A stretch of 64,000 nucleotides of DNA from an uncultured Acidobacteriia bacterium (GTDB lineage: Bacteria > Acidobacteriota > Terriglobia > Bryobacterales > Bryobacteraceae), in contig CAIVPR010000074.1 of the NCBI GenBank assembly GCA_903907865.1, forward strand, positions 1 to 64,000. Direction: 5' to 3'. The notes under the pieces are model-generated. The model did no database searches. It saw only the letters and a program-made list of their open reading frames with translations, and had not been told where the DNA came from. A program made the translations under genes and the position numbers. Position 1 is the stretch's first letter. Every line of letters starts with the position of its first letter. Shown piece after piece: positions 1,635 through 55,029 of this stretch.

Positions 1635-4115
1635 CTACCGTGAAAACCGACTAGCCACCGGCACCGGCATGGGCACCCCCGGTCCCTTGATCGCCACCCA
1701 CAGGACCGCGTTCAACTCGTCGTCGTCCGCCTCGTCCTCACGATCAAAGCGCATCTTCTCCGAGCGCCGTGCAGCCGCCGTATTTGTCGGATTCTTGGTG
1801 TCCAGCGGAATTCGCGCCTTCTCCAGCACGTACGGTTTCGCCGCAGCCGCCGTCCCGAAGACGCCAAACATCGGTCGAGCCCCCGCGTCGTAGGTCGTCA
1901 GCGGATGCAGGCCCAGAATGATCTCCATCGTCCGCAGCACCGATGTCTGCGTGTACATCGTGCTGTTCACCGTCCCCTGCTTCACCCACGGTGACACCAC
2001 ATACGCCGGGGCGCGGTGCGAATCCACATGGTCCGGCCCGTTCTGCGCGTCGTCCTCGATGATGAAGATCGCCGTCTCGTTCCAGAACTTGCTCTTCGAC
2101 AGAGCCTCCACCACCATCCCGACCCCCAAATCGTTGTCGGCAGCCAACGAAAGGGGCGACAGTTTGCCCGCCGCGAGGCCGCTCGTGTGATCGTTGCCCA
2201 TCCGCATCAGCATCAACTGCGGCATTTTGCCCGACTTCTCGAAATCCGCCAGTTCCTCGATGAACTCCTTGGCGCGCTCCACGTCCGGGTATTCGAGGTC
2301 GAAACCCCGGTAATTCGGATCGGTCACCGGTGCCAGAATAGAATCGCGAATGCCGGTGATCTGCGTCCCGTCGGCCTCCGCGGTCTTGCGGTTGTCCACG
2401 AAGTAGCCGTAGTTGCGCATCGTGACTCCGGCTTGCGACGCGGCGGTCCAGATGTACCCAGCGGGCGGCGCGTTGGCCGGTTCCTGCCCCTCGTAGTCGT
2501 ACTTCTTCCGCCGACCGGCATAGCTGTTGGGCCACATCTTCTGCGTATAGTCCGGCGCGATGGCGGCCGTGGCCCAGTTGTGGCCGTCGGCGCTGACATC
2601 GGAATTCTCATAGAAGTTGTCGAGCAGCACATAGTCGCGCGCCAGCTTGTGGTGGTTCGGGGTCACGTTTTCGCCGAACAGCACCAACGACGCGTCCCCG
2701 TTGCCTTCCTTGATGTCGCCCAGCACCTGGTCGTAGGTGCGATTTTCCTGCACGATGTAGAGGACGTGCTTGATGGGCCCGTTCGGCCTCACGGGCGATC
2801 CCTCGGGCGAGCCAGTCGCCGACCCCGTCACATCTAGCTTGTCGTCGTTATACGGGGAATTCGCCACCACTTCCTTCGTCATGGCGTCGAGCTTGCCCGC
2901 GTCCGAGGTGTCGACGATCTGCAGCGTGCCCCTCTGGATCCGTCCCACATACTGGATTTCGCCCGTACCCACGTGGACGGCCTCCCCCGCTTTCCGGGGG
3001 CTGGGACCGTCGGGATTCGGGAACGACCGGGGCCCCTTCCCGTTCAGGATCCCCATCTGGCCGTCGGGAAGGCTGAACGCCGCCGTCGGATACCAGCCGG
3101 TCGGTACAAAGCCGAGCACGGTGCTGCGCGGGCCCGTGATGTCGATCACGGCTGCGGCGTTGGCGTCCGAACAGGCCACATAGAGTTGCTTCTTGTCGGC
3201 GGAAATTCCGAGCCCGCTCGGCGTCATGCCCAGCGGCTGGCGCGGGGTCAGCGCCAGGTTGATGTTCTCGATGCGCGTCAGCCGTCCCAAGTCGTCCGCG
3301 CCCATCGTGAAGACGGAATTGGTGTTGCTGGCCGACACGAAGAGGCGCGCCTTTACGCTGGGCTGTTCATCAACTTCGCCGTCGAGCCACACCATGTCGG
3401 TGGGATGCGCGGCAACGCGGACATTGTCCAGCCGATCGCCGTTGGCGGGGTCGTACTGCCCTATGGAGCCGTCCGCCCAGCTGGAAACGTAGAAACTCTT
3501 GCCGCTGGGGTGAAAGAGGATCCGGTACGGACGGCGACCGGTCTTGATGCGCGAAACGATGAAGCCGGACTGCGGGTTGATGACTGCGATGCGGTCGCGG
3601 TAGAGTTCGGTGGCGTAGAGGAGCCGCCCGTCGGGCGACAGCCGCACGTCGCCCACGAAGTCTTCGGGCTTGCGGTCCTTTTCCTCGACCACGGGGAACG
3701 TGCGGGTGGCCGTTAGCTTCCCTGCGGCGAAGGCGAATTCGTAAACCCCGGCCTTGGAGCCGCCCCCGACATAGACGCGGTCGCCAGCCTTGTTCATCGT
3801 GAGTCCAAGCCATGCGTCCGGCACCGGCACGCGGGAGGATTCCTTGCCCGCCGCGAGGTCGATCACGCTAATGGTGGGCGGGTTGTAGCCGCCGTTCAGC
3901 ACGAGGAGGTATTGCCCGTCGCGCGAGGCGACTTGCGCCATCGGAAACGTCTCCACCGGGATCTGCTTGCCGGAGGGTTTGATCCGCCAGCCGCTGCTGA
4001 GGAGGAAGCTACCGTCGGGGAGGAAGCCCACCTGTTCGCGGGGGGCAGGTTGGGACATGAGCACGACGGTGGTGGCCGCCAGAAACAGGACGAGCGCGGG
4101 GGTCTTCATGTACAC
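1635..4115 (-). CDS. Exported beta-propeller / phosphoesterase fusion (YncE plus alkaline-phosphatase-like)
   Basis: The 826-residue protein has an N-terminal signal sequence (MKTPALVLFLAATTVV), a YVTN/YncE-type propeller over roughly residues 40-400 with repeats such as RVYVGGGSK, LYATELYRDRI and QLYVACSDAN, and from about residue 445 a phosphoesterase domain beginning KHVLYIVQENRTYDQVLGD. The latter is the acid-phosphatase/phospholipase C type of the alkaline phosphatase superfamily, with metal-ligand-like EDDAQNGPDHVDSHR near the end. Together this is the known bifunctional YncE/alkaline phosphatase family, presumably periplasmic. It starts 4 nt after the nadE stop, so it is probably co-transcribed with it. 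The substrate is unknown. Confidence 0.85.
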   Translation of the reverse strand: MYMKTPALVLFLAATTVVLMSQPAPREQVGFLPDGSFLLSSGWRIKPSGKQIPVETFPMAQVASRDGQYLLVLNGGYNPPTISVIDLAAGKESSRVPVPDAWLGLTMNKAGDRVYVGGGSKAGVYEFAFAAGKLTATRTFPVVEEKDRKPEDFVGDVRLSPDGRLLYATELYRDRIAVINPQSGFIVSRIKTGRRPYRILFHPSGKSFYVSSWADGSIGQYDPANGDRLDNVRVAAHPTDMVWLDGEVDEQPSVKARLFVSASNTNSVFTMGADDLGRLTRIENINLALTPRQPLGMTPSGLGISADKKQLYVACSDANAAAVIDITGPRSTVLGFVPTGWYPTAAFSLPDGQMGILNGKGPRSFPNPDGPSPRKAGEAVHVGTGEIQYVGRIQRGTLQIVDTSDAGKLDAMTKEVVANSPYNDDKLDVTGSATGSPEGSPVRPNGPIKHVLYIVQENRTYDQVLGDIKEGNGDASLVLFGENVTPNHHKLARDYVLLDNFYENSDVSADGHNWATAAIAPDYTQKMWPNSYAGRRKKYDYEGQEPANAPPAGYIWTAASQAGVTMRNYGYFVDNRKTAEADGTQITGIRDSILAPVTDPNYRGFDLEYPDVERAKEFIEELADFEKSGKMPQLMLMRMGNDHTSGLAAGKLSPLSLAADNDLGVGMVVEALSKSKFWNETAIFIIEDDAQNGPDHVDSHRAPAYVVSPWVKQGTVNSTMYTQTSVLRTMEIILGLHPLTTYDAGARPMFGVFGTAAAAKPYVLEKARIPLDTKNPTNTAAARRSEKMRFDREDEADDDELNAVLWVAIKGPGVPMPVPVASRFSR

Positions 4116-4119
4116 CTTT

Positions 4120-5787
4120 TTATTCGTTTTCGAAATAGCGTTGCGCGATGGGGAAGCGTCGGCCGATGCCGAATGCCTTCGACGTTACCTTGAGGCCCGG
4201 CGCGGCCTGTTGCCGTTTGTATTCGTTGCGGTCGACCTTGAGCGCCACATCTTGCACCAGCGGCAGTGGCAGTCCGAGCTCCTCCGCGATTTCCGCAGCC
4301 GACCGGAACTCCTCCACATAGAGGCGCAGGATGGCGTCGAGAACGTCGTAAGGTGGCAGCGAATCGCTGTCCTTTTGGTCGGGACGGAGTTCGGCGGAGG
4401 GCGGTTTCACGAACACCGACTCGGGAATGGCCCCTTCATGCCGACGGTTGCCTTCCCGTGAAAGCTCGTAGACCATAGTCTTGGGCACGTCGCTGATGAG
4501 CGCCAGCCCACCGCACATGTCGCCGTAGAGGGTGCAGTAGCCGACCGCGATCTCGCTCTTGTTGCCCGTCGTCAGCACCACGGCCCCGAACTTGTTGGAG
4601 ATCGACATCAGCGTGAGGCCGCGCAGCCGAGCTTGGATGTTTTCCTCGGCCACGCCGGGCCGGGTGCCAGCGAAGACTCCTGCCAGGGTGCGGGTCATCT
4701 CCTCGTACGCGGGGGTGATGGGGATGATGTCGAACTGGATTCCAAGTCGTTCGGCCATTTCGCGCGCGTCGCGCACCGAGTGGTCCGAGGAAAACGGCCC
4801 GGGCATCGCCACGCCGCGCACGTTTTCCCGGCCCACGGCGTCCACCGCGAGCACGGCCACCAGCGACGAGTCAATGCCGCCACTCAATCCGATCAGCACT
4901 TGCCGGAAACCACACTTGCCCAGATAGTCGCGGGTGCCGAGGACCAGCGCCTCGTAGACGGCCTCGATTTCACCCGGAAAATCGGCATTCAGGTCGCCGG
5001 TTCCAGCGCCGGTATCGACCACCACCAGATCCTCGGCGAAGGATTTGGCTGTTCCCAGCAAATTCCCCTCGGCATCCATGGCGAAACTGGAGCCATCGAA
5101 GATGACTTGGTCGTTGCCGCCAACTTGGTTGACCATCACGACCGGCTTCCCGTAGCGGCGAGCCATCGAACGGATCATTTCGTGCCGCAGTTCGCGTTTG
5201 CCGATGTGGAACGGGGAGGCGTTGATGCTGACCAGCAGGTCGCCGCCTTGGGTCATGAGTTCCTCGACGGGGTCGCGGGAATACAGGCGCGGATGCCAGA
5301 AGAGTTTGTCGTTCCAGGCGTCCTCGCAGATGGTGAGGGCAACGTTAGTGCCTTTGGTTCCGGTGCCGGTGCGCCACAAAGTCTGTTTGTCGGCAGGGAC
5401 GAAGTTGCGGGCTTCGTCGAAGACATCGTAGGTGGGAAGCAGGATTTTCTGCTGCCGCATGAGGATCTCGCCGCCCCTGAGGATCGCGGCTGAGTTGGTG
5501 GCGCGCTTGCCGGTCGTCTTCTCAGAACGACCGACGTAGCCGGCAATGACGGCGAGCGGGAGATCGGCCGTCGCCTCCGCCAGCTTGAGCAGCGATTCCT
5601 CGGCCGCAGGGATGAAGCTGCGCTTCTCGACGAGGTCGCGCGGGGGGTACCCTGTTACGCAGAGTTCCGGGAACACGACGAGTTCCGCCCCGCGTTCGGC
5701 GGCTGCCCGCGCGTACCGGGTGCAGAGGGCGACGTTGCCGGCAAGGTCGCCGACCGTGGGATTGATCTGCCCGAGGGCGATCCGCAT
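4120..5787 (-). CDS. nadE: Glutamine-dependent NAD+ synthetase
   Basis: The 555-residue protein makes NAD+ from deamido-NAD+ and ATP, using ammonia from glutamine. The N-terminal nitrilase-type glutaminase carries Glu in VVFPELCVTGYPP, Lys in QKILLPTYD and the nucleophile Cys in ALTICEDAW. The C-terminal ATP pyrophosphatase has the SGGIDS loop beginning about residue 302, followed by a conserved TTGNKSE segment. Length fits the two-domain bacterial type. It is the first gene of a two-gene minus-strand unit with the phosphoesterase and lies divergently from sppA, about 240 nt apart. Confidence 0.95.
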   Translation of the reverse strand: MRIALGQINPTVGDLAGNVALCTRYARAAAERGAELVVFPELCVTGYPPRDLVEKRSFIPAAEESLLKLAEATADLPLAVIAGYVGRSEKTTGKRATNSAAILRGGEILMRQQKILLPTYDVFDEARNFVPADKQTLWRTGTGTKGTNVALTICEDAWNDKLFWHPRLYSRDPVEELMTQGGDLLVSINASPFHIGKRELRHEMIRSMARRYGKPVVMVNQVGGNDQVIFDGSSFAMDAEGNLLGTAKSFAEDLVVVDTGAGTGDLNADFPGEIEAVYEALVLGTRDYLGKCGFRQVLIGLSGGIDSSLVAVLAVDAVGRENVRGVAMPGPFSSDHSVRDAREMAERLGIQFDIIPITPAYEEMTRTLAGVFAGTRPGVAEENIQARLRGLTLMSISNKFGAVVLTTGNKSEIAVGYCTLYGDMCGGLALISDVPKTMVYELSREGNRRHEGAIPESVFVKPPSAELRPDQKDSDSLPPYDVLDAILRLYVEEFRSAAEIAEELGLPLPLVQDVALKVDRNEYKRQQAAPGLKVTSKAFGIGRRFPIAQRYFENE

Positions 5788-6025
5788 GAACTTTCAGTTT
5801 AGCTGTCCCGTCGCCTTTACGCCTGTTTATGGATCGGACGGGCTGAAGGGCCCTCCGCCGATTGTCCGACGCCCGTGCCTTTGCGCTTGTCGGCCAGGCA
5901 TGAAACGGCGAAATTCCTGGGTGGTGCGCCGGGGTCCAGCGCGGGGTGGAAACGTGGACGCCAGCAAACCGGCTTCGTGGGGCAAGACCACCCTCACCGT
6001 GCTAAGGTCAGACTGAAAGAACAAA

Positions 6026-7783
6026 ATGGGCAGGTATCTTCTCGGAGTATTGACTGGCGTGGTTCTGGTCGTCGTGTTGTGCGTCGCCGGGCTGTTCGCG
6101 GCGGCGTCGCTGAAGTCGCGGGCCCCTACGGTGGCCGACGGCAGCACGTTGGTGCTGCGCATTTCGGGCGAGGTGCCGGAGCGGGCGCCACTCGAGATCC
6201 CCTTCCCGTTCGGCGGCGACAAGGAGACATTGACAGTCCAGAACATCTGGTCGGTGTTGCGTCGTGCGGCTGCGGACAGCCGAATCAAGGCGGTCGTCCT
6301 GCAGCCCGAAGGTGCCACGCTGGGCTGGGCCAAAATGCAGGAGATCCGGCGCGACCTCGACGAGTTCCGCAAGTCCGGCAAGCCCGTCTACGCCTATCTT
6401 CGGACAGCCTCGTCCCGCGACTACTACCTGGCCGCCGGGGCTTCCCGCATCTACTTGGGACCCAGTGACGGCCTGAACGTCAAAGGTGTCGCACTCGGCT
6501 TGATGTACTACAAAGGCACGCTGGACAAACTGGGCGTGCAGGTCGAAGTGGAACATGCCGGGAAGTACAAGGATTTCGGGGACAGCTACACGCGCACCTC
6601 GATGAGTCCCGAGACCAAGGAGGTGCTCAACGGCATCGCCGACAACGTCTACGGCGACCTTATTGCCGCCATCGCACGCGGCCGCAAGCGTCCCGAGGCC
6701 GAAATCCGGGCCACCATCGACGAGGGGCCCTTCATCGCAGCCCAAGCCAAGGCAAAGGGCTTGGTGGATGACATCAAGTACGAGGACGAGATGTGGGCCG
6801 ATCTGAAGAAGGTCCTCAAGCAGACCGAGTTGAAGAAAATGTCGGCCCACGACTATGCCCTCGTCCCCGACGGGGCCGCTGCGTCCCCCGACCGGATCGG
6901 ATTTGTGGTCGCAGAGGGCGAGATTACGCGCGGCGATGCCAATTCGACCGACGACAGCGGACTGGAGTCCAACCAGTTCGTGCGAATGATCAACAAGGTT
7001 GCAGCCGACTCGACATTGAAGGGCGTCATCGTCCGCATCGACTCGCCGGGTGGCGAAGTCCCCGCGTCGGACGAAATGTGGCGGGCGATGCAGGAACTGC
7101 ACCGGAAGAAGCCGGTTGTGATTTCGATGTCGGATGTGGCGGCCTCGGGCGGGTACTACATGGCGATGTCGGGCGACCCTATTGTGGCGTATCCGGGAAC
7201 CGAGACGGGCTCGATCGGGGTTGTTTTCGGCAAGCCCAACCTGCGGGGCTTGTACGACAAGGTTGGGTTGTCGAAGGATTACATCAGCCGGGGGAAGCTG
7301 GCGTTGATGGAGTCGGACTACCAGCCGTTGTCGCCGGCAGGCCGCGCCAAGCTTCGGGAAGGAATCGACGCTACCTATGTAGATTTCGTGGGGAAGGTCG
7401 CGGCCTCGCGCAAGCGCCCGTTCGCGGAGGTCGAGCCCCTCGCCCAAGGTCGGGTATGGATGGGCGACCAAGCCAAGGCCAACGGCTTGGTGGACGAATT
7501 GGGCGGCATCGACCGGGCGCTCGAAATGGTTCGCAAGAAGGCCGGGATTCCAGCCACGGCGAAGGTTCACCTTGTGGTGTTTCCGGGCAAGCGCAGTTGG
7601 TTGGATTTGCTGACGCACGCAGCCTCGGAAACCGCTGAATCGGACGCTGAAGCGCGCATTTCGGGTCTGCTGTCGCGTTCCGGCCTGGAGCCGCTGCGCG
7701 CGGCTTGGCGCGACCCGAGGCTGCGCGTGTGGATGCGGGGCGGCATGTTGCGGATGGCACCGTTCTCCTTGGAATTCCGATGA
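6026..7783 (+). CDS. sppA: Signal peptide peptidase SppA (protease IV, long form)
   Basis: The 585-residue protein has an N-terminal membrane anchor (LLGVLTGVVLVVVLCVAGLF) and two tandem SppA/ClpP-like domains, as in the 67-kDa E. coli enzyme. It cleaves released signal peptides in the membrane. The general-base Lys is in the first repeat (AGKYKDFGDS, about Lys182) and the nucleophile Ser in the second (SDVAASGGYYMA, Ser374), matching the split catalytic dyad of the family. Downstream is a 166-nt non-coding leader and then the metal-transport genes; no promoter was evident in the 238-nt gap upstream. Confidence 0.93.
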   Translation: MGRYLLGVLTGVVLVVVLCVAGLFAAASLKSRAPTVADGSTLVLRISGEVPERAPLEIPFPFGGDKETLTVQNIWSVLRRAAADSRIKAVVLQPEGATLGWAKMQEIRRDLDEFRKSGKPVYAYLRTASSRDYYLAAGASRIYLGPSDGLNVKGVALGLMYYKGTLDKLGVQVEVEHAGKYKDFGDSYTRTSMSPETKEVLNGIADNVYGDLIAAIARGRKRPEAEIRATIDEGPFIAAQAKAKGLVDDIKYEDEMWADLKKVLKQTELKKMSAHDYALVPDGAAASPDRIGFVVAEGEITRGDANSTDDSGLESNQFVRMINKVAADSTLKGVIVRIDSPGGEVPASDEMWRAMQELHRKKPVVISMSDVAASGGYYMAMSGDPIVAYPGTETGSIGVVFGKPNLRGLYDKVGLSKDYISRGKLALMESDYQPLSPAGRAKLREGIDATYVDFVGKVAASRKRPFAEVEPLAQGRVWMGDQAKANGLVDELGGIDRALEMVRKKAGIPATAKVHLVVFPGKRSWLDLLTHAASETAESDAEARISGLLSRSGLEPLRAAWRDPRLRVWMRGGMLRMAPFSLEFR

Positions 7784-46918: not shown

Positions 46919-49666
46919 GTGACGGAGGAAGACTGGAGTACGGTCGAGGCGCATTTCAGCGCCTTGATGGAATTGAGGCATGCGGATCGTGCCTCCGGCT
47001 TGGCGCGGATCGCGGACGAAGCGATCCGGCGCGAGGTCGCGTCCCTGCTCGCCAACGCGGATGAAGGCACGCTGCACCTGCCCGGAATCGGCGGTGTTGC
47101 GGCGGACCTGCAATCGGACCGCACCCGAACGGTGTCGGAGTCGATGTCGAAAGACGGCTCCGGGGCGCAGTTTGACCGCGCCGGCCGTCGCTTGGGGCCA
47201 TGGCGGTTGCTCCACCGGCTGGGACAGGGCGGCCAAGGGACGGTATTCGAGGCGGTGCGGGACGACGGAGCCTATGAGCAGCGCGCCGCCGTCAAGATCG
47301 TCAACCGCGACATCGACAGCGAGCTGTCCCGACGGCGCTTTCGTCACGAGCGCAGGATTCTTGCCGCCTTGGAGCACCCCAACATTGCGAGGTTGCTGGA
47401 TGGCGGCGAATCGTCAGACGGCCAGCCATACTTGGTGATGGAGTTCGTCGAAGGCCGTCCGCTGGTGGCGGCCACTGCCGGATGGAGCGTCCGACGGAAA
47501 CTTGAGTTGTTCCGGGACATAGTCGACGCGGTCGCCTTCGCGCACCGGCATCTGATCGTCCACCGGGATCTGAAACCGTCGAACATCCTGGTCACGGCGG
47601 ACGGAGTGCCGAAGCTGCTCGATTTCGGCATCGCCAAGCTGATTGAAGAGGAGGGAGTCGCCGAAACCGGGGCACATACCGTTACTTCGGCGGGGATGCA
47701 CACGCCGGACTACGCGTCGCCCGAGCAGATCCACGGCAAACCGGCTGGAATTGCATCCGACATCTATTCCTTGGGTGCCGTGCTCTACGAACTTCTGAGC
47801 GGTTCCAAGCCTCATCGGCTGGAGAGCTACTCCACGGCGGACGTGTACCGGGCCATTTGCCTCGACGAACTCCGGTTGCCGAGTAAGCGAGTCGAGTCTT
47901 TGGAACTCGGGCGGCAACTGCGGGGCGATCTCGACACCATGGTGTTGGCGGCGATGGTGCGGCAGCCGGAAAAGCGCTACCCGTCGGCGGAGGCGTTCGC
48001 GGCGGAAATAGACCGATATCTGGAGGGACGCCCGTTATCGGTCCGGCCGGCGTCAGCCGTGGAACGCTGGTGGAAATTCGCTCGGCGCAACCGGGTCGCC
48101 GTTGGTGCCGCCGCGATGGTGTTGTTGGCCGTTGCGACGGGCACGGCGGTGTCGGTGCGGGAGGCCAAGATCGCAAACCAGCGCTTCCAACAGGTGCGGC
48201 GGCTGGCGCATAGTTTCGTTTTCGACTACAACGACGAGTTGGCGCGGGTGGAAGGCACCACGGCAGTTCGCGAGCGGATGGTGCGGACTGCCGTCGAATA
48301 TCTCGACAGCTTGTCCGCAGGCGCGTCGGGCGACAGGAGTTTGCAGCTCGAGTTGGCCGACGCCTACCAGCAAGTCGGCAACGCCCAAGGTTTCCCCACG
48401 CAACCAAGCCTCGGCCACACCGACCAGGCAATTGCCAGCTACCGCAAGGCTGCGGCGATTCGCGCCGCAGTGGGCGCCACCACCGCGAAGGAACTCCTGG
48501 CGAGGGCCAATTCTTACAACCGCTACGCCCAGCTCATGCGGTTTGCCGGAAATACCTCAGAGGCTGCCCGCAACATGGCCCTGGGGCTTCACGACGTGGA
48601 GGCTGCGGCGGAATCCAGCCCCGACGATGTCTCGATCCTGCGCACGCTGGCGAATTCGTGGTGCGGCCTGGGAGATCTCGACGAGGACGAAAACCGCCAC
48701 ACGAAGGCGTTTCAGGAGTTCACCAAGTGCGACCAGATCGCGGGCACCGTGATCGCCAAGGCTCGTACGGTGGAGAATTTCGAGTTGGCGGCGGGTGCCA
48801 AGGAGCGGATCGCGACATCCTCCCAGGCAGCCGGTCGGATGCAGGCGTTTTTTGAAGCCGCGGCCGCCGACCAGGCCTTTGTGGACGAGGGCAGGAAGCT
48901 GGGTGCCAATACGCCGGTTCTGAATCGCCGCCAACTGTTCCTCAACCAGATGACGACGTTTTTCTACTATGATTTCGACGGGCCGAACATGTTGGATCCC
49001 GCGAAATCGTGGGAGTATGCGGAACGGTATCTCGCGTCGGCCCGCGAGGGGGTGGAGCGGGATCCGAACAACGCTTCGGCACAGTTGAGCCTGGCGATCG
49101 CGCTGTTCTCGGTGACGGTGTCACAGGAAGTGGACGATGTTGCCGGAGCTTTGGCAAATGCGAGGGAATCGATCGAACGCTTGGACAAATTGGCGGTGGC
49201 AAAGAAGCAGTCGTACCTGGTGCAATCCCGCAGGGCGCATGGCTTGCGTCGGTTCACAGAGGTTTTGATGGCCGCCGGACACTTGCAGGAGGCGCGGCAG
49301 CGAGCGGCGGAAGCGGTCGCCGAGCAACGCAAGACTCTCACGCACGACGCGGGCGATCTCCACGAAGAGGCGGAGACGGCGGAAGCGCTGATGGCGGCAG
49401 GGGCGGTTGAGGACCGGCTGGGAGAACATTCACGCGCGCTCCCGCTGTTCGAGGAGGCTGGCCGGATGGTGTCGGACGTGGTGGCGCATAAGTGGTGGCG
49501 CATAACGCGGGCGAGTTGGCGACGACCTGCCTACAGTCGTTCTATTTCGAGGCGATGGAAGCCCATTGGAGGTCCGCGAAAGACCTCGGCCAAGCTCGGC
49601 ACTGGTACCAGGAAGTCGAGAAATTGTGGTTGCGGCAGGACCAATCGAACGAGTTCGTCAAGTTGA
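46919..49666 (+). CDS. Membrane Ser/Thr protein kinase with TPR tail, frameshifted at 3' end
   Basis: From a GTG the protein has an acidic N-terminal helix zone, then a Hanks-type kinase: P-loop LGQGGQGTVFEA, Lys in AAVKIVN, HRDLKPSN and LLDFGIAK. A transmembrane helix (VAVGAAAMVLLAVATG) and a long periplasmic TPR-like region follow. The first 857 codons look normal, but after VVAHK the frame turns into a Trp/Arg/Ser-rich tail without TPR character. A 14-bp tandem duplication at this point causes the shift; the natural continuation (VVAHNAGELATTCLQSFYF) is in the next reading frame, that of the histidine kinase gene. Confidence 0.88.
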   Translation: MTEEDWSTVEAHFSALMELRHADRASGLARIADEAIRREVASLLANADEGTLHLPGIGGVAADLQSDRTRTVSESMSKDGSGAQFDRAGRRLGPWRLLHRLGQGGQGTVFEAVRDDGAYEQRAAVKIVNRDIDSELSRRRFRHERRILAALEHPNIARLLDGGESSDGQPYLVMEFVEGRPLVAATAGWSVRRKLELFRDIVDAVAFAHRHLIVHRDLKPSNILVTADGVPKLLDFGIAKLIEEEGVAETGAHTVTSAGMHTPDYASPEQIHGKPAGIASDIYSLGAVLYELLSGSKPHRLESYSTADVYRAICLDELRLPSKRVESLELGRQLRGDLDTMVLAAMVRQPEKRYPSAEAFAAEIDRYLEGRPLSVRPASAVERWWKFARRNRVAVGAAAMVLLAVATGTAVSVREAKIANQRFQQVRRLAHSFVFDYNDELARVEGTTAVRERMVRTAVEYLDSLSAGASGDRSLQLELADAYQQVGNAQGFPTQPSLGHTDQAIASYRKAAAIRAAVGATTAKELLARANSYNRYAQLMRFAGNTSEAARNMALGLHDVEAAAESSPDDVSILRTLANSWCGLGDLDEDENRHTKAFQEFTKCDQIAGTVIAKARTVENFELAAGAKERIATSSQAAGRMQAFFEAAAADQAFVDEGRKLGANTPVLNRRQLFLNQMTTFFYYDFDGPNMLDPAKSWEYAERYLASAREGVERDPNNASAQLSLAIALFSVTVSQEVDDVAGALANARESIERLDKLAVAKKQSYLVQSRRAHGLRRFTEVLMAAGHLQEARQRAAEAVAEQRKTLTHDAGDLHEEAETAEALMAAGAVEDRLGEHSRALPLFEEAGRMVSDVVAHKWWRITRASWRRPAYSRSISRRWKPIGGPRKTSAKLGTGTRKSRNCGCGRTNRTSSSS
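49478..49505. repeat. Perfect 14-bp tandem duplication causing a frameshift
   Basis: GTGGTGGCGCATAA occurs twice without spacer (49478-49491 and 49492-49505). Removing one copy joins the kinase frame to the histidine-kinase frame without any stop and restores a smooth TPR sequence across the junction. Slippage in either direction would switch between split and fused products. A read or assembly error is possible. Confidence 0.9.
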
Positions 49667-51606
49667 AGCTGGCGCAAGTTCGGGGGATCGCCGGCGATTC
49701 CAGTAGCCGGGGCGTATTGTGGGTAGAGGGAATGCCAGACAGGCTCAGCATCCACGCGCCAGTGTTGGTCAATACGCTCGGCCATTGCGCCGGGGCGATT
49801 GTCTTCGGCATCCTGTTCTATTTGCTGGTGCTGGATTGGCGGCGGAATAGGGGGGAGCGCGACGTGCTGCCCGCGATTGCGGCGGCGCTGGCCATGGTGT
49901 GGAACTTTGGATCGCTCATCGCGCTGGCGACGCCGGCCGGCGGGGACGCGCTGGCCGATGTCATTGTGGCGGGTAGTTTTTCCGTGCTGAGCCTGCTGCC
50001 GGCGGTCCTGTTGCACATCTCGCTGCGGGCGTCGCCGGTGGTAGCGGGTCGGCGGGCGCTGTGGGTGTCCGGGTATGTGGTGAGCGGGGCGGCCGTCGTG
50101 CTGCATTTGAGCGATCTGATCACCACTGCGCCGCGATTCCATTACGCCGCTATCCTGCTGGTCACGGTCGGATTCGGACTGCTGACGGCAGTAACGGTGG
50201 CGCGGGAGAGTCTGTCCGGACATGGCCTCCCCCGACGGCGGGATGGCAGTGGCGCCCGGTTGGCCGGGGCGATGGTACTATTCCTTTTCGCGATTTCGTT
50301 CGTGCACTTCGAGACCTCGCGCGAGACGCGCTGGTCCGGCGAGGCGGCGTTCCACCACGCCGGAATCCCGTTGGCTCTGTTTGTTCTGCTGCAGGACTAC
50401 CGGTTCCTGCTGCTCGACGCGTTCCTCCGCTTCCTGGTCAACGCGGTGTCGGCTGCCGTCAGCGTCGGCGCTGCGTACCTTGCGAATGCCAAACTGTCTC
50501 TGGTGGCGCGGGCCGAACGCGATCCGTTCCATGGCGGGCTGATTTTCGTCGGGGCGTGCTTGCTGCTCAGCCTCTTCGTGTACGTGCGGGGGCGCGTGCA
50601 GCGGTGGCTGACGCGGGTCGTCTTCCTGCGGGCCAATACCGACAAGGCCGTGACGGAACTGAGGGAAATCGCCGCCCAGGCTGGCGACGAGGCGGGCTAC
50701 CTTACTGCCACCGGTACCTGCATCTCCCAGTTCCTGTCCGCCCCGCGATTTGAACTGGCGGAGGCGTCGGGCGAGCGGATTCCCGACGTCGCGGTCACGG
50801 TGGTGGATCCCGAAAAGTGGACCGTGCCCGCTTGGACCCAGGCGGTCGCACCGTTGCGGTTCGCGCGGGGTGATTCGAAATTGCTGCTCCTCGGGTCGCG
50901 GTCAGGCGGGCGGCGCTACCTGAGCGAGGACATCGAGGCGCTGGACCGGTTGGCGGCCGTTGTCTGCGAGCACGTCGAGCGGATCCGGTCGTCGGAGATG
51001 CAGAATCTGGTCTCACGCGCGGAATTGAGGGCGCTCCAGGCCCAGATCAACCCGCACTTCTTCTTCAACGCCCTGAATACGCTCTACGGGACCATTGCGC
51101 GAGAGAATGCAGCGGCGCGACGGCTGGTGACAAATCTGGCCGACCTGTTCCGATATTCGTTCGCCGCGGACCGGGTCTTCATCCGTCTGGAAGAAGAGAT
51201 GAAGATGGTGAGGGCGTATCTGGAGATCGAGGAATTGCGATTGGGGAAGAAGCTGGAATCCCGCATCGAAGTGGATCCGGAACTATTGGGGGTCGAGGTG
51301 CCGGTGCTTTCGATCCAGCCGCTGGTGGAAAATGCGGTGAAGCACGGCGTGGCGGCGCGGTCGGCCGGTGGTTTTGTGCGGCTGACAATCCGCCGGGAAG
51401 GACGGTCGGCAATCGTGGAGGTCGCCAATTCCGGCACCTTCGGTGCTGCGCGCCAGCCCGACGCGTCGGGAACCGGCATGGGCATGGGCAATGTCCGGCG
51501 CCGCTTGGCGCTTTGTTACGGGGAGAGCGCGAGGCTTGATATGAAAACATCGGCGGAATCGACTTTGGTGTGGTTCCAAGTGCCGCTCACTGGAGAGGCC
51601 CGGTGA
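49492..51606 (+). CDS. LytS-type membrane histidine kinase (possibly the second half of a kinase fusion)
   Basis: The frame begins with the end of the TPR region (about residues 1-75), then has about eight hydrophobic segments (VLVNTLGHCAGAIVFGILFY onward), a GAF-like part and a His_kinase/HATPase module. Signatures are INPHFFFNALNTLYG with His522 as phosphoacceptor, VPVLSIQPLVENAVKHG and GTGMGMGNVRRRL. It would phosphorylate the LytTR regulator encoded with a GTGA overlap. If expressed separately, start could be the GTG in the duplication or an ATG at 49732 (MPDRLSIH). Without the duplication it is fused to the Ser/Thr kinase. Confidence 0.85.
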   Translation: MVAHNAGELATTCLQSFYFEAMEAHWRSAKDLGQARHWYQEVEKLWLRQDQSNEFVKLKLAQVRGIAGDSSSRGVLWVEGMPDRLSIHAPVLVNTLGHCAGAIVFGILFYLLVLDWRRNRGERDVLPAIAAALAMVWNFGSLIALATPAGGDALADVIVAGSFSVLSLLPAVLLHISLRASPVVAGRRALWVSGYVVSGAAVVLHLSDLITTAPRFHYAAILLVTVGFGLLTAVTVARESLSGHGLPRRRDGSGARLAGAMVLFLFAISFVHFETSRETRWSGEAAFHHAGIPLALFVLLQDYRFLLLDAFLRFLVNAVSAAVSVGAAYLANAKLSLVARAERDPFHGGLIFVGACLLLSLFVYVRGRVQRWLTRVVFLRANTDKAVTELREIAAQAGDEAGYLTATGTCISQFLSAPRFELAEASGERIPDVAVTVVDPEKWTVPAWTQAVAPLRFARGDSKLLLLGSRSGGRRYLSEDIEALDRLAAVVCEHVERIRSSEMQNLVSRAELRALQAQINPHFFFNALNTLYGTIARENAAARRLVTNLADLFRYSFAADRVFIRLEEEMKMVRAYLEIEELRLGKKLESRIEVDPELLGVEVPVLSIQPLVENAVKHGVAARSAGGFVRLTIRREGRSAIVEVANSGTFGAARQPDASGTGMGMGNVRRRLALCYGESARLDMKTSAESTLVWFQVPLTGEAR

Positions 51607-52349
51607 ACCTTCGCACGCTGATCGTGGACGACGAGCCCATCGCCCGCCAGATACTCCGAGAGGAACTGGAGTTGGTGCAGGGGGTTTCGGTGGTGGGAGA
51701 GGCTACCGACGGCTTCGAGGCCGTGGAGTCGGTGCGGGTACTGTCGCCGGATCTGGTTTTCCTCGATTTGCAGATGCCGGGCTTGGGGGGATTCGACGTG
51801 GTGCGGCGGTTGCGGCGGTCGGGGCACGTGCCGATGTTCGTGATTGTGACCGCGTTCGACCGGTATGCCATCGAGGCCTTCGAGGCCGGGGCGGTCGACT
51901 ACCTGCTCAAGCCAATCTCGCCGGAACGTCTGGCACAAGCGGTGGACCGGGCGGCGAAGATGTTCGGCCAGGGCGGGGAAGTGGAGCCGCAACCGCAAGC
52001 GGCGGCTGCGGGATCCGGGCGGACCAGGCGAGTCGTTGCCCGGTCGGGCGCGGAGTATCTACTGCTGAATGCCGACGAGGTCTTGGCGTTCGAGGCGGAC
52101 GGCGACTTGGTATGGATCATCACGGCCAAGAAGCGCTATCTCGCGACGGAGACTCTGAAGGTGATCCAGGAGAAGCTTGGCGGGAACGACTTCCGTCGCA
52201 TCCACCGGAGCGTGCTGGTGAACATCGACCATGTCCGCAAGATGAGTCCGATGAGCAGCCAGCGGTGGCTGGTGACTTTGAGCAACGGCCAGGAGTTTGT
52301 TGTCAGCAAAAGACTGGCCCACAGCGTTAGAAAGACGCTCACGGCGTAG
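51603..52349 (+). CDS. LytTR-family response regulator
   Basis: The 248-residue protein has an N-terminal receiver (TLIVDDEPIARQIL, phosphoacceptor Asp55 in FLDLQMPGLGG, Thr in VTAFDRYAIEAF, Lys in DYLLKPISPE). An Ala/Gln-rich linker and a C-terminal LytTR DNA-binding domain follow (YLLLNADEVLAFEADGD, FRRIHRSVLVNIDHVRKM). The GTG start overlaps the histidine-kinase stop, confirming a cognate pair. The target genes are unknown; the receptor gene immediately downstream is a candidate. Confidence 0.93.
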   Translation: MNLRTLIVDDEPIARQILREELELVQGVSVVGEATDGFEAVESVRVLSPDLVFLDLQMPGLGGFDVVRRLRRSGHVPMFVIVTAFDRYAIEAFEAGAVDYLLKPISPERLAQAVDRAAKMFGQGGEVEPQPQAAAAGSGRTRRVVARSGAEYLLLNADEVLAFEADGDLVWIITAKKRYLATETLKVIQEKLGGNDFRRIHRSVLVNIDHVRKMSPMSSQRWLVTLSNGQEFVVSKRLAHSVRKTLTA

Positions 52350-52446
52350 TCCGGTCACCGGCGGATTGCGCCCGCCTGCTGGAAATATACCCCCGCCTGC
52401 CGTAACCAAGTAAGAAGTGCGAGCCGCCTTGTTAGACACTGGTGGC

Positions 52447-55029
52447 ATGGGAATCCTCGCGCAGGCTCGATTGGTGTTGGCGCTGCTGGTTTGCGCAGGT
52501 TTCGGCTACGGGCAGTCGCTGGGCAACGCTGGAACGATCAACGGATCGGTGACGGACCCATCTGGCGGCGTGGTCGCAGCAGCCCAAGTGACACTGCACA
52601 ACGCGATTTCCGGCTACAACCAAGCGGTCTCCTCGGGTGCCGACGGTGTTTTTCGGCTTGTGAATATCCCGCCCGGAGCGTACCACTTGGAAGTGAACGC
52701 CTCGGGGTTCACCATTTTCACGCACGATGTGACGATCCGGAACTCGGTGCCGATCACCGTCGACGCGAAGTTGACCTTGGCGGGAGCCAAGAGCGAGGTC
52801 AGCGTCGAGGCTTTCGCCGACACGTTGGTGAACGATCCTTCGTCGCACACTGATGTGGATCGCACGCAGTTGCTCAAACTGCCGGATGCCGACCCGTCGG
52901 GAGGCTTGAGCCAGGCCATCGTCTACAGCACGGGCGGCGTATCGGCCGACGCCAACGGATTTTTCCATCCGCTGGGGGACCACTCGCAGGTCAGCTTCGT
53001 CGTCGACGGCCAACCGATCAGCGACCAACAGAGCAAGTTGTTTTCGACGCAGTTGCCGACCAATGCGGTCCAGAGCATGGAGGCCAATACCGGCACTCCG
53101 GCCGCGGAGTTCGGCGACAAGAGCAGCTTGGTGGCGCAGATCACGACCCGGTCGGGACTGGGTGCCGGCAAGGTTTTCGGCGATGTGGATGCACAAACGG
53201 GAAGCTTCGGACTGGTTGGCGGTGGAGCCGCCCTCGGGTTCGGCAATGAGAAGTACGGCAATTTCATCGCCGTGGGAGCGGAACGCACCAACCGGTTTCT
53301 GGATACCCCGGAGTTCGTGCGCATCCACGACGCGGGCAACGGCAGCACCATTTTCGACCGGTTCGACTACCAGCCCGACGGGAAGAATGTTTTCCACCTC
53401 AACCTGTTCGCAGCCAGGAACTGGTTCCAGATTCCCAACGACTACGACCAACTGTCGCAGGACCAGCACCAACGGGTGATGACCTGGAGCGTCGCGCCGG
53501 GCTACCAACACACGTTCAACGCGCATACCCTGATGACGGTGAACCCGTATCTGCGCAAGGATCAAGTTGACTACTACGCCAGCCGGAACCCGTTCAACGA
53601 CACGCCTGCGACCCAGGGCCAATCGCGCCAGTTGCTGAATTGGGGCGTGAAGGCGGACGTCGCCAGCACGATAGGGCACCATTCCTTCAAGGTCGGCCTG
53701 GATTTGAAGCAGACGCGGCTGCTGGAGAACTTCGATCTGGGAATCACGGACCCGACATTCAATGCGCCTTGCCTGGATCCGGACGGAAGCCCCGCTGCCG
53801 GAGCCGCTCAGCGCAATCCGGGTCAATGCAAAGTGGCCGGCCTCGCGCCGAATACGGACGGGTTCTCGGCGGGCATCGCCCCGTTCGACCTCACGCGCGG
53901 CGGTTCCTTGCTGCGGTTCCATGCCACGCGGAACATCAACCAGTACGCGGTGTATGCGCAGGACACCATCACTCTGGGCAAGTTCGTCGCGAGCATCGGT
54001 TTGCGGCTGGACCAGTACGACGGGATCGTGTCGAAGTTTGCGCCCGAGCCCCGGTTTGGGCTCTCCTACAGCTTGAACAAGACCGGAACGGTGTTGCGGG
54101 TGGCTGGAGCCCGGACCATGGAGACGCCGTTCAACGAGAACCTGCTGATTGCCAACGCTTCGGGACAGGGCGGCTTGGCGCAGAATGTTTTCGCAGCGAC
54201 GCCGGTCGGGATCACCCCTGGTGGGCGTAACCAGTACAACGCAGGTTTCCAGCAGTCGCTGGGCCGCTACGCGCTGGTGGACATGGACTACTTCTGGAAG
54301 TTCACGCGGAATGCATTCGACTTCTCGACGCTGCTGAATTCGACTCTGACTTTCCCGGTGGCGTGGCACAAGTCGAGTTTGGACGGCTTGTCGGGGCGGG
54401 TGAGCACGACAAACCTGCACGGATTCCAAGCGAGCCTGAACTTTGGACATACGCGGGCGCGGTTCTTCGGGCCCCAGGCTGGAGGCTTGATTCCGCAAGG
54501 AGCCGGTCTGTCTCATGGAGTGTTCCGCATCGACCATGACCAAGCGTTTGAATCGACGCTTTCGCTGCACTATCAACGTCCCAAGAACGCGGAGTGGATT
54601 TCGTTCGTTCTTCGGTACGACAGCGGCCAAGTGGTGAGTGGCGTGCCGGATACGCAGTTCGCGATGGAGAATCTGACTCCCAACCAGCAGGTGACCATCG
54701 GGTTGGCCTGCGGAGGCACGTTTGCCACCGTGTCCAAGCCGATCGATACGTGCAAAGGGCCGGTTACTTCGACGCTGTTGACCTTGCCCGCGACCGGTAC
54801 CGAGAACGATGACCACAATCCGGACCGCGTGAAATCCCGCAATGTTGTCGACTTGGGATTCGGGACGGACAACTTGCTGCATGTCGAAGGTACGAGGCGC
54901 GTCAAGGTTTCGCTGGAGCTCGCCAATCTGACCAACAAGATCGCGCTGTACAATTTTCTGTCGACGTTCAGCGGCACGCATTTCCTGCAGCCGCGGGCTG
55001 CGGTGTTGAAGGTTTCCTGGGCGTTCTAG
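52447..55029 (+). CDS. TonB-dependent-receptor-like outer membrane protein with regulatory domain
   Basis: The 860-residue protein has a signal peptide (LVLALLVCAGFGYGQ), a carboxypeptidase-regulatory Ig-like domain (INGSVTDPSGGVVAAAQVTL, NIPPGAYHLEVNASGF) and a plug-like segment (VSFVVDGQPISDQQ, NAVQSMEANTGTPAAEFGD). A long beta-barrel region ends in Phe (VLKVSWAF), as in outer-membrane barrels. This is the SusC-like/Oar-like type common in Acidobacteria, usually for uptake of large substrates or adhesion. Start at MGILAQ is preferred to a GTG ten codons earlier. It is downstream of the LytTR regulator by about 100 nt. Confidence 0.87.
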   Translation: MGILAQARLVLALLVCAGFGYGQSLGNAGTINGSVTDPSGGVVAAAQVTLHNAISGYNQAVSSGADGVFRLVNIPPGAYHLEVNASGFTIFTHDVTIRNSVPITVDAKLTLAGAKSEVSVEAFADTLVNDPSSHTDVDRTQLLKLPDADPSGGLSQAIVYSTGGVSADANGFFHPLGDHSQVSFVVDGQPISDQQSKLFSTQLPTNAVQSMEANTGTPAAEFGDKSSLVAQITTRSGLGAGKVFGDVDAQTGSFGLVGGGAALGFGNEKYGNFIAVGAERTNRFLDTPEFVRIHDAGNGSTIFDRFDYQPDGKNVFHLNLFAARNWFQIPNDYDQLSQDQHQRVMTWSVAPGYQHTFNAHTLMTVNPYLRKDQVDYYASRNPFNDTPATQGQSRQLLNWGVKADVASTIGHHSFKVGLDLKQTRLLENFDLGITDPTFNAPCLDPDGSPAAGAAQRNPGQCKVAGLAPNTDGFSAGIAPFDLTRGGSLLRFHATRNINQYAVYAQDTITLGKFVASIGLRLDQYDGIVSKFAPEPRFGLSYSLNKTGTVLRVAGARTMETPFNENLLIANASGQGGLAQNVFAATPVGITPGGRNQYNAGFQQSLGRYALVDMDYFWKFTRNAFDFSTLLNSTLTFPVAWHKSSLDGLSGRVSTTNLHGFQASLNFGHTRARFFGPQAGGLIPQGAGLSHGVFRIDHDQAFESTLSLHYQRPKNAEWISFVLRYDSGQVVSGVPDTQFAMENLTPNQQVTIGLACGGTFATVSKPIDTCKGPVTSTLLTLPATGTENDDHNPDRVKSRNVVDLGFGTDNLLHVEGTRRVKVSLELANLTNKIALYNFLSTFSGTHFLQPRAAVLKVSWAF

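Follow-up and report, generated by a model that had tools for sequence, protein, structure and literature searches.

A 14-bp tandem duplication probably frameshifts the tail of a Ser/Thr kinase gene lying ahead of a separate histidine kinase gene in an acidobacterial operon

We analysed a 64-kb stretch of DNA (the window) from an uncultured Acidobacteriia bacterium and conclude, with considerable confidence, that it carries separate kinase genes in a three-gene acidobacterial operon, the tail of the first having been frameshifted by a recent 14-bp duplication. The most likely description of the locus is that of a three-gene operon whose first gene is without its last 65 to 70 codons. A first-pass annotation had seen that one copy of the repeat would leave an open frame spanning both kinases and had raised the prospect of a fused ancestral protein or a phase-variable switch; comparison with relatives favors an origin as two genes.

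RESULTS

Duplication and reading frames. The 14-mer GTGGTGGCGCATAA occurs exactly twice in the window, at 49478-49491 and, with no gap, at 49492-49505 on the forward strand, and none of 100 dinucleotide shuffles of the window contained two copies of it. The window has three exact tandem duplications with units between 8 and 60 nt, and this perfect one (49478-49505) is the longest; it shifts the frame, and one of its copies is an insertion relative to the gene family. The repeat is as the first-pass annotation described it, and so is its effect on the frames: the sequence as it stands separates the kinases into two ORFs in different frames (46919-49666 and 49492-51606), and removal of one copy yields 1557 stop-free codons that carry the kinase frame into the histidine kinase. 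High third-position G+C switches frame at the duplication, and this change, together with the open one-copy frame, indicates a frameshift within coding sequence. Both the GTG at 49492 with which the second ORF begins and the preceding in-frame TAA at 49489 were made by the duplication itself. No one-copy version within two mismatches was found elsewhere in the window's own assembly.

A scan of 720,853 bases of loci, in which overlapping loci were counted more than once, returned 10 rows of exact tandem duplications (units, 10 to 60 nt), two of them belonging to the window and two overlapping; among the remainder, two (L111 and L120) have a unit not divisible by three, and both appear by eye to be noncoding. 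A 9-bp exact tandem duplication in the window (TGCGGCGGT twice, 51802-51819) lies within the regulator gene and has a unit that is a multiple of three.

Genes of the window. The Ser/Thr kinase-TPR gene as it stands, delimited by the ORF list, domain search, and family alignment, spans 46919-49666 on the forward strand (915 aa; stop codon at 49664-49666). Its kinase domain covers approximately residues 97 to 354 (PF00069, E value of 6.7e-42) and contains HRDLKPSN at residue 215 and DFG at residue 235, the motifs of Hanks-type Ser/Thr kinases, to which the protein belongs. A single transmembrane (TM) segment lies at about residues 393 to 411, and the C-terminal half gives weak TPR matches. The last 57 or so residues of this ORF are out of frame, and the window kinase lacks the intact C-terminal tail with a stop shortly after it that is present in the relative L036 and in eight further homologues. 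The displaced tail and a short linker (49492-49731, forward strand) occupy codons 1 to 80 of the 704-aa ORF, approximately 65 codons aligning with L036 and about 15 making up the linker; they are read in the frame of the histidine kinase and are not part of it.

The histidine kinase ORF as called (49492-51606, 704 aa) was matched only from residue 69 onward by G015 and G018, the best relatives among the matches listed. On the sequence evidence of the aligned ATG in these relatives and of the stops upstream in homologues, the start is placed at 49732 and not at 49492, giving a histidine kinase proper of 624 aa (MPDRLSIHAPVLVNT..., 49732-51606, forward strand); an ORF caller would place the start 80 codons too early. 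The protein matches PF06580 (His_kinase; E value of 2.6e-25, 88.9 bits against a curated cutoff of 25.2) and contains the motifs QINPHF and ENAVKH, and its HATPase_c match (E value of 1.1e-4, 23.1 bits) is below the cutoff of 26.4, compared with 34.0 for the L036 copy. By a rough hydropathy scan, the N-terminal half is hydrophobic and probably crosses the membrane several times. LytS carries a five-TM LYT-type sensor domain; the membrane part of the window protein gave no Pfam match at an E value of 0.1, and the LytS sensor domain was not found.

The third gene (51603-52349, forward strand), which adjoins the histidine kinase gene as had been noted, encodes a response regulator with PF00072 (E value of 2.6e-28) followed by the LytTR DNA-binding domain PF04397 (E value of 4.3e-22), the Response_reg-LytTR architecture. 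If it starts, as assumed here, at the GTG at 51603, it shares its first 4 nt with the end of the histidine kinase gene, stop codon included; in the ORF list the start is placed further upstream, at a GTG at 51570. Beyond it lies a TonB-receptor-like gene, named by eye, with its ORF at 52417, so that histidine kinase, regulator, and receptor-like genes are clustered at 49732-55029. The members of this trio lie near one another in 8 of 65 rows (L041, L044, L047, L053, L061, L071, L080, and L098), the 65 rows representing 63 distinct places, most with only about 900 nt visible downstream; orientations vary among the eight, and the clusters are without a Ser/Thr kinase. The receptor-like gene may be a target of the LytTR regulator.

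The operon in its nearest relatives. Besides the window's genome, the operon was seen in two genomes only, G015 (taken as locus L036) and G018 (taken as L037), which are 92% identical over 5.4 kb. The kinase-TPR gene of L036 is one intact ORF (3430-6210, 926 aa) ending in TAG, and the histidine kinase ATG follows in a different frame at 6216, 8 nt after the T of the TAG; the complete, intact two-gene arrangement is shown by L036 only. The same TAG and ATG are present in L037, where the histidine kinase starts at the aligned ATG and the kinase frame is broken earlier. Two genes with a stop between them, the arrangement that the first-pass annotation had named as contrary to a fused ancestor, were therefore found in L036. 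The window preserves the TAG-ATG spacing of both loci, with a TAG (49724-49726, forward strand) aligned with the L036 kinase stop and lying 8 nt before the ATG at 49732; this TAG is out of the frame of the tail because the window is a net 19 nt longer than L036 just upstream of it. The linker from the tail to the histidine kinase is free of stops in the frame that the two share, which would make a one-copy allele read as one chain, and the 19-nt difference means that a one-copy window would be an open join and not the relatives' arrangement. The 14-bp repeat is absent from the homologous place in L036 and L037.

Rough pN/pS values for the window against L036 were 0.214 (kinase domain), 0.376 (TPR part), 0.361 (tail in its true frame; 65 codons, with synonymous sites saturated), and 0.176 (histidine kinase). 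Such values suggest that the tail was coding during most of the divergence between window and L036 and that the duplication is young. The kinase frame of L037 is broken by a 1-nt deletion of its own, approximately 70 nt upstream of the position that corresponds to the duplication (region 5840-5880; ORF stop at 5877), which is also seen in L140, the same contig; around it the aligned stretches of L036 and L037 are identical apart from the 1-nt gap. Of the three genomes in which the operon was seen, two thus have a broken kinase tail, reflecting either relaxed constraint or sequencing error.

Homologues of the two kinases. The search set comprised 151 genomes, the window's own and 150 relatives. 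The kinase-TPR query had matches at an E value of ≤1e-20 in at least 63 of them, and eight homologues beside L036 were read to their stops, one from another contig of the window's genome and one a second copy in G015 with its start cut by the contig edge. All eight terminate soon after the tail motif, and with L036 included, all nine do so within about 20 residues; six of the nine aligned homologues have open frames of 885 to 931 aa. The one-copy version of the window tail aligns to the nine family members without a gap at the duplication site, from which it follows that the second 14-bp copy is new.

Longer frames were considered as candidate fusions, in a check that covered part of the matches listed and left out frames of 1219 aa (G046), 1202 aa (G051), and 1143 aa (G000:C88). 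A 1031-aa frame in G100 was rejected, since rereading gave 607 aa with the upstream stop unchanged on rechecking; a 925-aa frame in G111:C19 had no kinase match, and its first 180 or so residues looked by eye like a wrong-frame translation; a 1499-aa frame in G018 proved to be the kinase gene with its frame continuing upstream across an ORF of the opposite strand, which we take to resemble an aquaporin.

The histidine kinase query matched at an E value of ≤1e-30 in at least 117 of the 151 genomes. We inspected 62 places, namely, 60 from the match list (G017, G066, and G013 contributing two each) plus L036 and L037; other listed places, such as those in G138, G144, G116, G124, G102, G105, G099, and G110, were left out of the 60, and so were the weaker matches. 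A same-strand kinase-TPR gene lay upstream in 2 of the 62 (E value of ≤1e-6), L036 and L037 themselves, and a search of both strands at an E value of ≤1e-5 added only L054, whose kinase-like match lies on the opposite strand; upstream sequence was shorter than 2 kb at four places (L043, L055, L064, and L070). At 61 of the 62 places, an in-frame stop preceded the equivalent of the first histidine kinase residue at a distance of no more than 122 codons, and at 51 of these 61 the distance was no more than 40 codons; the remaining place, L070, begins at a contig edge, and for L078 and L097 the first-residue place was extrapolated from a best match starting inside the protein. The upstream ORFs of 15 loci, inspected by eye, included no kinase. 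The continuous fusion, a kinase-TPR protein of approximately 900 residues in front of the histidine kinase, was accordingly found in none of the 61 testable places. Internal stop codons (TGA and TAG) occur in the histidine kinase homologues L044 (G017:C323) and L086 (G106:C169), which are possibly pseudogenes or errors.

DISCUSSION

The locus is best explained as a three-gene signaling operon, the first gene of which encodes a membrane Ser/Thr kinase whose C-terminal half is TPR-like, the second a PF06580 histidine kinase in its own right, and the third a LytTR regulator. The extra 14-bp copy throws the last 65 to 70 kinase codons out of frame; it probably arose recently as a small tandem duplication and is probably present in the cell and without special use. 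The truncated kinase would keep its catalytic and TM parts and lose the end of its repeat domain, and translation of the histidine kinase would still begin at the ATG of that gene, at 49732. Termination-reinitiation coupling between the two would probably be weaker, because the kinase stop ends 65 nt before that ATG in the window compared with 5 nt in L036.

Recent mutation and assembly error had both been offered at the outset as causes and are the likelier of those offered, and the duplication does behave as a frameshift with a second copy that is new to the family. An error of assembly or sequencing, with a single copy in the cell and the genes ancestrally separate and here in one derived frame, is rather unlikely. 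A draft assembly of 186 contigs, the 1557-codon open frame, and the coding constraint still visible in the tail are compatible with such an error, but the assembly holds no one-copy version within two mismatches, and the second length difference, the net 19 nt relative to L036, is required as well. A cell with one copy would have lost the kinase stop and so would have a continuous frame, unless the 19-nt difference were itself erroneous or the histidine kinase still used its own ATG. Closely related, and improbable, is a fusion confined to this lineage that arose when the 19-nt change removed the stop, is made in one-copy cells, and is separated, perhaps reversibly, by the duplication. Its product would be a 1557-residue membrane protein combining the Hanks kinase and its TPR-like domain with the PF06580 histidine kinase. 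The rough hydropathy scan, with one TM segment in the kinase and several hydrophobic stretches in the histidine kinase, does not forbid such a fusion; if present, it would be a derived state of the lineage and not its ancestor.

Slippage between one and two copies, alternately joining and parting the kinases, is most unlikely. In its favor are a perfect repeat in coding sequence with a unit that is not a multiple of three and an open one-copy frame, and the same rough scan leaves room for a workable fused topology; against it, there are only two copies of the unit, the homologous place in L036 and L037 has no repeat, L036 has two genes, and no one-copy allele was seen in the assembly; positive evidence for the switch is lacking. 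An ancestral single protein that was later split is more improbable still: the open one-copy frame speaks for it, whereas in the relatives examined, histidine kinase homologues that have no kinase ahead of them, kinase-TPR homologues that stand alone, and two genes in the nearest operons speak against it. That a frame stays open once a frameshift has been "mended" says little for a fusion. Programmed frameshifting that completes the kinase across the duplication is as improbable as that ancestor, for the nearby frameshift in L037 is countered by an L036 gene that is intact without one, the two stretches differing solely by the 1-nt gap, and the shift site CAT AAG TGG, read by eye, contains no slippery run.

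Separate genes with a duplication-damaged kinase tail remain our preferred interpretation, and its importance reaches little beyond annotation. The Hanks-type kinases of relatives share with the window copy the kinase domain, the TPR-like region, and the C-terminal tail, the single TM segment being recorded for the window copy; the latter differs in the frameshift of its last 65 to 70 codons. The second and third genes resemble LytS-type systems in the PF06580 domain and the adjacent Response_reg-LytTR gene and differ from LytS in a membrane part unmatched in Pfam at an E value of 0.1. A literature search for a protein kinase, tetratricopeptide, and histidine kinase combination in Acidobacteria or Solibacter gave no match, and both phosphorylation systems in one chain are, to our knowledge, uncommon. 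HstK of Anabaena PCC 7120 unites a Ser/Thr kinase and a histidine kinase in one protein (PMC2176072); the likeness lies in the idea of both kinase types in one chain, but the window has two separate genes, and in neither the window, L036, nor L037 do both kinase domains share one frame. KdpD is a tandem serine-histidine kinase in which serine and histidine phosphorylation come from a single polypeptide, but its serine kinase domain is atypical (PMC11018627). A real fusion in cells with one copy would bring two phosphorylation systems together in one chain, in a manner already known from HstK and KdpD.
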